Source of the DNA: Bacteroidia bacterium
GTDB taxonomy: Bacteria > Bacteroidota > Bacteroidia > Flavobacteriales > Flavobacteriaceae
Assembly: GCA_030429835.1 (NCBI GenBank)
Contig: JAUIGC010000016.1
Location: 1 to 33,684 of the forward strand
Direction of reading: 5' to 3'
DNA length: 33,684 nucleotides
Position numbers and translations under genes: made by a program. Positions within the stretch are counted from its first letter, which is position 1. The number at the start of each line of letters is the position of its first letter. This document shows positions 30,454 to 33,143 of the stretch, one piece after another. The notes beneath the pieces were generated by a model. The model saw only the letters and a list, made by a program, of their open reading frames with translations. It did not search any database and was not told where the DNA came from.

Positions 30454-31476
30454 ATGAAATCACCCCTCCTACAATTTACCGATAAAGGAATCTATTGTGA
30501 CAAAGCGGACGTTTATCTAGATCCATGGAAACCTGTCGATAAAGCCATCATAACCCATGGCCATACGGACCACAGCCGTTGGGGCCATCAAAAATATATT
30601 ACCCATCAAAGGAATATCCCCATCATTTCACACAGACTGGGAGACATTAATACGGTAGGAATGGAATGGGGCGAGACCTTTACCGTAAACAATGTAAAAT
30701 TTAGCCTACACCCTGCAGGCCATATCATTGGGTCTTCCCAAATTAGGGTAGAACACAAAGGCGAGATTTGGGTCTTTACCGGAGATTATAAGACCGAGGA
30801 CGATGGTATTTCCACTCCATATGAATCCGTTAAATGCCATACCTTCATAACCGAATGTACCTTTGGACTACCAGCTTTTAAATGGATTCCACAAAATGAG
30901 GTGTTACAGGATATCAACGCATGGTGGAAAGAAAATCAAAATGATGGGAAAACTTCCATACTTTTTGGATATAGCCTGGGTAAGGCCCAGCGATTACTGA
31001 AATATTTGGATACCGATATCGGCTCGATTTACACCCACGGGGCCATAGAAAACATGACGGAAGTACTAAGACCCTTAGTCTCATTTCCCAAGACAACACT
31101 GATTACTAGAGAAACCACCAAAAAAGAATTATTGGGCAATATGGTATTGGCACCACCCAGTGCCCATGGAAGCACTTGGATACGAAAAATGGTTCCCTAT
31201 GTCACCGCTTCTGCGAGTGGTTGGATGACCTTTAGGGGGGCACGTAGAAGAAGAGCTATTGATAAGGGGTTTGTACTGAGTGACCATTGCGACTGGCAAG
31301 GATTGTTATCCAGTATTGAGGCAACAGGAGCGGAAAAGGTTATTTGCACACATGGATATAGCGATATATTTTCAAAATACCTGCGAGAATTAGGGTATGA
31401 TGCCAGAACAGAGGCAACACAATATGAAGGGGAACAGGGCGAGATGGAGTCATCAAAATCGAATACAGAGGTATGA
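30454..31476 (+). CDS. Ligase-associated DNA exonuclease (SNM1/beta-CASP-like MBL)
   Basis: 'AIITHGHTDHSRWGHQKYITHQ', 'HPAGHIIGSSQIRVEHKGEIWVFTGDYKTEDDGISTPYE', 'FVLSDHCDWQGLLSSIEATGAEKVICTHG'. Followed by an ATP-dependent ligase in an overlapping frame. Confidence 0.9.
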   Translation: MKSPLLQFTDKGIYCDKADVYLDPWKPVDKAIITHGHTDHSRWGHQKYITHQRNIPIISHRLGDINTVGMEWGETFTVNNVKFSLHPAGHIIGSSQIRVEHKGEIWVFTGDYKTEDDGISTPYESVKCHTFITECTFGLPAFKWIPQNEVLQDINAWWKENQNDGKTSILFGYSLGKAQRLLKYLDTDIGSIYTHGAIENMTEVLRPLVSFPKTTLITRETTKKELLGNMVLAPPSAHGSTWIRKMVPYVTASASGWMTFRGARRRRAIDKGFVLSDHCDWQGLLSSIEATGAEKVICTHGYSDIFSKYLRELGYDARTEATQYEGEQGEMESSKSNTEV

Positions 31477-33143
31477 AAAAATTTGCCCAACTTATAAAGG
31501 CCCTGGACAGTACCAATAAAACCAACTTAAAAGTTAATGCGCTTACCGCGTATTTTCAACAGGCGGATGATAAGGACAAGGTTTGGACCATTGCCATACT
31601 TTCACATAGGAGACCACCAAGACCTGTTAACACCACCTTGCTACGAGAATGGGCTTCTGAACTCGCGAATATTCCACTTTGGTTGTTCGAGGAAAGTTAT
31701 CATATCGTAGGCGACTTGGCCGAAACTATTGCCTTGGTAGTCCCAAATTTGAACAAAACCTCTTCTAAAAGCCTCACATCATTTTTAAAAGAGATAAAAT
31801 CGTTAAAATCCAAACCTGAAGATTTTAAGAAAGCTTATTTACATCAGAATTGGAAATCGCTCAACTACTATGAACGTTTTGTGTTCACTAAATTGATTAC
31901 GGGCGGATTTAGAATTGGTGTAAGCCAAAAATTGATGACTCGAGCACTTTCTAAAGCTACGGAAATCGACGAGGATATTCTGGCCTACAAATTAATGGGA
32001 AATTGGGACCCTGATAAAATTTCATTCCAACAGCTGGTTTTGGAAAAGAACGAAAGTGACTATTTATCAAAACCTTACCCATTTTATTTGGCCTATGCCA
32101 TTGAAGGTGAAGTGGAGGAATTAGGCAATGTATCACAATGGTTCGCGGAGCATAAATGGGACGGTATACGTTCGCAGGTTATCTTGAGAAACGACGAAAT
32201 CTTTGTGTGGAGCCGAGGTGAGGAATTGGTAACGGACAAGTATCCAGAATTTGAACAGTTCATCGGCGTTATTCCCAATGGAACGGTCATTGATGGCGAA
32301 ATCCTACCCTATCCAAAAGGACAAATAGGTACCTTTAACGACCTCCAAAAACGAATTGGCAGAAAGACCATCAGCAAAAACTTACTTAGCAAAGTACCGG
32401 TTGTATTGAAAGCTTATGATCTTTTGGAATGGAAAGGGAAGGATATTAGAAATAAAGCTTTTAAGGAGCGTCGACAACTATTGGAGGACTTGTATGAGAG
32501 TGTGGCTTCGACTACGCTCGGCCAGCAGAAATCAAACGCTACGGAGCAAAGTAGAAATAAGGTCACTGAGCGGAGCCGAAGTGGCCTTCCGCTACAACTT
32601 TCAGAAACCATGGATTTTACCTCTTGGAAAGAAGTTGCCCTAGAAAGAGAACAGTCTCGAGAAAAACACAGCGAGGGACTGATGCTTAAACGAAAGGATT
32701 CTCCCTATCTCGTAGGACGAAAAAAGGGAGATTGGTGGAAATGGAAAGTGGACCCGTTGACCATAGATGCGGTTTTAACCTATGCCATGCGAGGTCATGG
32801 AAGAAGAAGTAATCTATTTACGGACTACACTTTCGCACTTTGGAACGAGAACGAGGAAGGAGAAAGGGAATTGGTCACTTTTGCAAAAGCCTATTCCGGA
32901 TTAACGGATGCCGAATTCAGAAAATTGGATGCTTGGATAAAGAAAAACACTTTGGAGCGGTTTGGTCCGGTACGTAGCGTAACCCCTCACCATGTTTTTG
33001 AAATCGCTTTTGAAGGGATTGCACTTTCCAAAAGGCATAAGAGCGGAGTGGCTACCCGCTTCCCCCGTATGCTACGATGGCGTAAGGACAAAACGATTCA
33101 TGAGGCCAATTCGCTATCGGACCTTAAAGAAATGATACCTTAA
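31473..33143 (+). CDS. ATP-dependent DNA ligase carrying an in-frame repeat-derived segment
   Basis: Motif I 'AEHKWDGIRSQ', 'WSRGEE', 'VIDGEI', 'YDLLEWKGKDIR', motif IV 'SEGLMLKRKDSPY', motif V 'WWKWKVDP'. Starts in ATGA overlap with the exonuclease stop. Confidence 0.94.
   Translation: MKKFAQLIKALDSTNKTNLKVNALTAYFQQADDKDKVWTIAILSHRRPPRPVNTTLLREWASELANIPLWLFEESYHIVGDLAETIALVVPNLNKTSSKSLTSFLKEIKSLKSKPEDFKKAYLHQNWKSLNYYERFVFTKLITGGFRIGVSQKLMTRALSKATEIDEDILAYKLMGNWDPDKISFQQLVLEKNESDYLSKPYPFYLAYAIEGEVEELGNVSQWFAEHKWDGIRSQVILRNDEIFVWSRGEELVTDKYPEFEQFIGVIPNGTVIDGEILPYPKGQIGTFNDLQKRIGRKTISKNLLSKVPVVLKAYDLLEWKGKDIRNKAFKERRQLLEDLYESVASTTLGQQKSNATEQSRNKVTERSRSGLPLQLSETMDFTSWKEVALEREQSREKHSEGLMLKRKDSPYLVGRKKGDWWKWKVDPLTIDAVLTYAMRGHGRRSNLFTDYTFALWNENEEGERELVTFAKAYSGLTDAEFRKLDAWIKKNTLERFGPVRSVTPHHVFEIAFEGIALSKRHKSGVATRFPRMLRWRKDKTIHEANSLSDLKEMIP
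32502..32586 (+). repeat. REP/BIME-like pair of inverted palindromic repeats inside the ligase CDS
   Basis: Left arm TGGCTTCGACTACGCTCGGCCA (32503-32524) and right arm GGTCACTGAGCGGAGCCGAAGTGGCC (32561-32586). Cores CTTCGACTACGCTC (32506-32519) and GAGCGGAGCCGAAG (32568-32581) are inverted copies with 12/14 identity. Each arm also has its own stem (TGGC/GCCA; GGTCACT/AGTGGCC). Confidence 0.8.

Follow-up and report, generated by a model that had tools for sequence, protein, structure and literature searches.

A 27-codon segment of an ATP-dependent DNA ligase gene is very probably derived from an inverted pair of REP-like hairpins that was captured as DNA in an ancestral ligase gene, underwent turnover of a 24-nt unit, and persists in the protein as a tolerated passenger peptide. 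The gene lies in the 33,684-nucleotide stretch of DNA analyzed here (the window), from a Maribacter genome that is 82.6% complete and lies in 337 contigs. The relevant features of the window are as follows.

31473 to 33143, plus strand: gene for a 556-aa ATP-dependent DNA ligase (TIGR04120, the cisplatin damage response ligase family); assigned by TIGR04120, NF006701 and Pfam domains.
32505 to 32585, plus strand: repeat-derived coding insert ASTTLGQQKSNATEQSRNKVTERSRSG, 27 codons, net gain of 23 aa over the family baseline; delimited by slice alignment with orthologues.
32503 to 32524, minus strand: decayed left arm of the hairpin pair, in inverted orientation, TGGC..GCCA stem with one mismatch; identified from sequence and BLAST.
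32538 to 32561, plus strand: decayed direct 24-nt unit encoding ATEQSRNK, which precedes the intact unit by one period; identified by identity to the next unit.
32559 to 32588, plus strand: intact hairpin of repeat family A, AAGGTCACT-GAGCGGAGCCGA-AGTGGCCTT; identified by the genome-wide core and stem covariation.

The ligase ORF scored 622 bits against TIGR04120 and 689 bits against NF006701, and the Pfam ligase N, M and C domains were all present, indicating that the gene is full-length. The closest folds to the ligase model were archaeal DNA ligases. From their sequences, the neighbouring genes appear to encode a metallo-beta-lactamase-like protein (upstream) and a DEAD-type helicase (downstream). 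The first-pass annotation had stated that the frame stays open through the repeat and that out-of-frame TGA, TAG and TAA are avoided in the ligase frame; both statements hold, and the gene is intact. Its estimate of about 27 extra residues is correct for the coding segment (ligase residues 345-371) but not for the net gain: the slice from LLEW to EGLMLK has 67 residues in most Flavobacteriaceae ligases vs 90 in the window. The repeat, previously placed at 32502-32586, was corrected to 32505-32585 for its coding part, which also holds two 24-nt direct units that the first-pass annotation had missed.

Alignment with flavobacterial ligases gave the clean gap anticipated by the earlier annotation: in Flavobacteriaceae orthologues that lack the segment, the site closes to 3-5 residues, mostly ~4. 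The same insert is present in G007, a one-contig genome whose ligase is 97% identical to that of the window, and in M. flavus. Close relatives carrying it include finished genomes and isolates, and an assembly error is therefore excluded; with the frame intact, so is a pseudogene.

From left to right, the insert comprises an inverted copy of the hairpin repeat, a spacer of 9 nt, and a pair of direct units of 24 nt each; its peptide reads, in order, ASTTLGQQ (the inverted arm), KSN, ATEQSRNK, and VTERSRSG. BLAST with the left arm matched other copies in the same genome (query 2-30 and 4-21). The two direct units are identical at 13 of 24 positions (shuffle P 0.0017), and orthologues read ATERIRSE or ATGQSGSG at the position of the first. 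The last unit exactly matches a hairpin repeat present in about a dozen copies in the genome; its hairpin has a 9-bp stem with one G.T pair and a conserved 12-nt loop. The repeat core TCACTGAGCGGAGCCGAAGTG lies at 32563-32583; its chance expectation in the window is 0. Neither TRF nor an inverted-repeat finder flagged the insert, because its units are decayed.

Family A is a short hairpin dispersed in multiple copies, and in this broad sense a REP. Thirteen copies of the core (up to 3 mismatches) were found in the genome of the window, vs none for the reversed control pattern. The loci sampled within the genus contained 149 copies, through which intergenic ones were sampled, and 39 of 121 Flavobacteriaceae genomes, drawn mostly as one per genus, had the hairpin. 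Among 180 distinct genus copies, in which the 12-nt loop GAGCGNAGNCGA was held constant by the search design and the stem was left to vary, stem positions 3, 4 and 5 paired in 92, 93 and 74% of copies, vs 65, 58 and 59% after shuffling; for positions 3 and 4 the shuffle maximum was 65-71%. The covarying pairs were of the AT, CG, GC and TA types. These findings indicate a palindromic stem under covariation. Inverted pairs, the arrangement of paired REPs, were found in the ligase gene, the leucyl-tRNA synthetase (LeuRS) gene, and at C227 2130/2170.

The ligase loop is a recurrent site for this repeat. Family A (up to 3 mismatches) was present in 29 of 111 ligase loops, a set that includes some genomes twice, vs 0 of 555 randomly placed control segments of the same genes. 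Among the 31 Maribacter genomes with a full ligase, 20 carried it in the loop; the four carriers outside the genus were Flagellimonas sp. 389, F. marinaquae, Allomuricauda abyssi, and Croceivirga thetidis. All members of the window's clade (the window, G007, G023, M. flavus, G017, G002) had it, which fits one old insertion in this clade. The loop of the Pricia antarctica ligase (L072 3445-3814) is 55 residues longer, with a best family-A match of 4 mismatches, and is probably extended by a decayed repeat cluster.

Two further families occupy the same loop. Family B (GTCATTTCGA...GAGAAATC) was found in 3 of 111 loops (two Allomuricauda, one Croceitalea; up to 1 mismatch plus exact GAGAAATC) and in none of the 555 controls; at least one carrier had it in both orientations, and one carrier's genome contained 7 matches (control 0). 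Family C (CATTCTGGANTNNATCCAGAATC, exact) was found in 2 of 111 loops (two Aquimarina), again with 0 of 555 controls. Its status as a genomic repeat is less firmly shown than that of B: of the two carrier genomes, one contains a single further copy, TCATTCCGGACTTGATCCGGAATC, whose stem is compensated. Judged by their sequences, which start with GTCATT, families B and C look CGTC-like. One ligase loop has thus been reached by at least three mutually unrelated repeat families across related genera. A ligase tree from which the loop was left out, obtained by a quick search and weak at several forks, requires at least 7 changes on well-supported branches for A, 2 for B, and 1 for C; it does not separate gains from losses.

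Within Maribacter, most differences in loop length are multiples of 8 aa, i.e., one 24-nt unit, and 16 of 20 loop lengths equal 2 or 6 modulo 8 (26, 34, 42, 58, 66; 38, 46, 54). As the unit is divisible by three, its gain or loss never shifts the frame. The M. sedimenticola ligase (L029 3530-3672; L293) contains 6.0 tandem copies of the 24-nt unit (VTEQNQSEVTERSRSE...), in frame and translated as VTERSRSE repeats, a coding minisatellite born from the hairpin repeat. The 24-nt period and the 8-aa ladder would also be expected if the insert were a lineage-specific coding minisatellite produced by slippage of ordinary ligase sequence, its likeness to the repeat being convergent or the genomic copies being derived from the gene. 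We consider this origin extremely improbable. The same hairpin with its covarying stem occurs in the 39 family genomes and at many genus loci outside the ligase; slippage does not produce an inverted copy such as that in the loop; and the sequence-unrelated families B and C lie in the same loop elsewhere. The inverted arm and the presence of the same repeat in unrelated genes largely refute a slippage origin.

The first-pass annotation had suggested that VTERSRS-like peptides might be scattered across unrelated protein families, and family-A-type peptides were indeed found in at least eight. Loci around family-A copies from 24 genomes were surveyed. In-frame copies lay well inside LeuRS (three separate sites), a TonB-dependent receptor, HsdM (three sites), HsdS, a FabF-like synthase, and PurL, and near the N-terminus of methylmalonyl-CoA mutase; these counts are skewed upward, since an insertion that breaks the frame is invisible inside a long ORF. 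One ORF covered by family A (L221) was dropped as antisense to another gene. The frames in use (VTERSRS, SLSGAEV, TSATLSD) are all stop-free. In-frame insertion in conserved protein genes, as known for Rickettsia palindromic elements (RPEs), was observed for the ligase, LeuRS, PurL, FabF, HsdM, HsdS, the mutase, and the TonB receptor. In the receptor, six Maribacter species (L200, L220, L231, L240, L242, L262) use the frame SLSGAEV, some with 24-nt doublets. When VTERSRS, SLSGAEV or similar peptides turn up in Bacteroidota proteins, they are to be read as translated repeats, not as conserved domains.

LeuRS contains the second in-frame family-A pair of the window's genome (G000:C310:12103-12168, VTERSRSDENVISTPVNH; L020, L338). 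The loop has 50 residues there, vs 31-37 in most orthologues without the insert. G007 and M. flavus also carry this insert, at 98-100% DNA identity.

The ligase insert is predicted to form a flexible surface loop of the adenylation domain. In an AlphaFold2 model (42 sequences), pLDDT was below 50 at residues 349-369, as against mostly 72-96 in neighbouring blocks; only this local contrast is informative, the C-terminal domain of the ligase also being poorly predicted. The low-confidence stretch is bracketed by a helix (330-352) and a strand (374-376), both confidently predicted, as would be expected of a disordered loop, a possibility raised earlier.

The insert, presumably translated, keeps its frame in several species, and its peptide is rich in R, S, T, N and Q. 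Both features would fit a peptide recruited for ligase function, e.g., as a basic, disordered tail that binds DNA or a partner; we regard such recruitment as very unlikely. Between the window and M. flavus, the insert had pS 0.27 and pN 0.23, whereas the rest of the gene had pS 0.80 and pN 0.107 (pN/pS about 0.1). The near-equality of pN and pS in the insert is evidence against selection on the peptide, and close species show free variation in both the length and the sequence of the insert.

The insert is presumably neutral, but its synonymous-site conservation exceeds what a passive passenger should show, and this counts against our preferred explanation. Insert pS was 0.16-0.27 vs 0.78-0.80 elsewhere in the gene (binomial P 8e-7 and 2e-8), and in the comparison with M. 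flavus none of 502 windows of the gene had a pS as low. The LeuRS insert, single-copy as a whole in six genomes searched, is identical between G007 and M. flavus over 66 nt, with 0 synonymous changes, while the 50 flanking codons have pS 0.45. Both results favour retention of the inserts for a role at the DNA or RNA level beyond mere tolerance, such as an mRNA hairpin acting on translation or stability, or a protein-binding site. Even so, we judge such a role unlikely: many healthy relatives lack the insert, its unit number is variable, and the window's own inverted pair folds weakly as a unit (z -1.2). Local interspecies recombination could also lower divergence, as could later acquisition, and a stretch of about 37 nt on the upstream side of the LeuRS insert is almost identical too. 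The low synonymous divergence of the inserts could therefore reflect DNA/RNA-level constraint, short interspecies exchange, or later acquisition.

We propose that a pair of inverted family-A hairpins (GAGCGNAGNCGA loop, covarying stem of 5-9 bp) entered the ligase gene of an ancestor of the window's Maribacter clade as DNA. It would have survived because it landed in an adenylation-domain surface loop, in one of four stop-free frames and with a length divisible by three. The hairpin unit may afterwards have been duplicated and lost at the 24-nt period, adding or removing 8 residues while keeping the frame; most likely, the protein simply tolerates the peptide as a passenger. Insertion may have proceeded by a single-strand or nuclease transposition that recognizes hairpins. 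No Y1 (HUH) transposase (PF01797), the enzyme associated with RAYT-mobilized REPs, was found in the window's genome (82.6% complete), and it was rejected as the mobilizer of family A; PF01797 matches occurred in 10 of 36 genus genomes, many of them broken by stops. DUF559 was likewise rejected, as no family-A core lay beside the DUF559 genes examined.

Other elements were found in the same kind of position. In LeuRS of five genus members (L331-L335: G017, G027, G006, G002, G025), an in-frame insert of ~130 aa occupies the same site as the family-A insert of the window's genome; it encodes a DUF559 (Vsr-like) endonuclease domain with GC-rich palindromes on either side. RecG of the window's genome (L347, ORF 151-2697) carries an in-frame DUF559 domain with hairpin-forming ends (G000:C325:3396-3707), inserted between the DEAD and C-terminal helicase domains as in G007, G001 and G018. 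Where DUF559 genes of the genus stand free, GC-rich hairpins in inverted orientation often mark their two ends (TCTCCCCTCTTGGGAGGGGATTAAGGGGTGGGT ... ACCCACCCCTAGCCCCTCCCAAGAGGGGA), and solo copies of these ends lie nearby.

Free-standing hairpin-bounded DUF559 genes: loci L349, L351-L353, L355, L358, L360-L362; in the window's genome, L371.

We tentatively suggest, as a possibility short of an even chance, that loops of some Flavobacteriaceae housekeeping proteins are landing sites repeatedly colonized by unrelated palindromes, and that hairpin-bounded DUF559 genes constitute a REP-like mobile system in which a nuclease replaces RAYT and which spreads in reading frames.

Because the loop, its repeat families, and its 24-nt steps can be recorded species by species in a free-living, culturable group, the capture of palindromes in frame becomes traceable, with the same loop, several families, and countable steps. 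Whether inserts of this type are junk, act as DNA-level elements, or supply raw material for new protein segments is a long-standing question that thereby becomes directly testable in the Maribacter group.

Searches of the open-access literature for the family-A sequence and for DUF559 with palindromic elements returned nothing relevant, which is weak as absence. This kind of insertion is already known; as far as that literature shows, what is new is the family-A repeat, the three-family loop, the in-frame 24-nt ladder, and the DUF559 elements in the LeuRS loop and RecG. Rickettsia and Wolbachia are established cases of in-frame protein-coding palindromes (Ogata et al. 2000, 2002, 2005; via PMC2229807); RPEs are single stem-loops of 105-146 bp (PMC2229807). 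The parallel with RPEs drawn in the first-pass annotation is supported by the multicopy hairpin, the empty sites in orthologues, and the in-frame copies elsewhere: in both systems, palindromic repeats lie within and between genes, add tens of residues in frame to conserved proteins, and form several families per lineage. Family A differs in comprising ~30-nt hairpins, paired or in 24-nt tandem, that are unrelated in sequence and occur in free-living marine Bacteroidota; with a whole element of 81 nt, it falls outside the RPE sequence families and their 100-150 bp size.

Enterobacterial RU/ERIC sequences are small and mobile and have become joined to reading frames (Delihas 2007, PMC2759123, PMC2229807). 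They too are non-autonomous repeats that contribute translated sequence to host proteins, but are MITE-like elements of 103-168 bp, unlike family A. Di Nocera et al. 2013 (PMC3733652) reported REPs in coding regions, over half of them dimers or groups encoding 20-30 aa, with the DNA ligase of Opitutus terrae and several tRNA synthetases among the genes affected, and CGTC repeats in Bacteroidetes. Family A resembles these GTAG/CGTC REPs as a small REP that also forms dimers in coding regions, including those of a DNA ligase and a tRNA synthetase. It differs in its conserved 12-nt loop and in having no GTAG or CGTC tag beyond the stem in the position tables of the 180 copies, and so falls outside those superfamilies, which are defined by an unpaired end tag (PMC3733652). 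The same study described one gene, recB, that different REPs had entered at roughly one position (PMC3733652); here, a single ligase loop has been struck by three families across genera.
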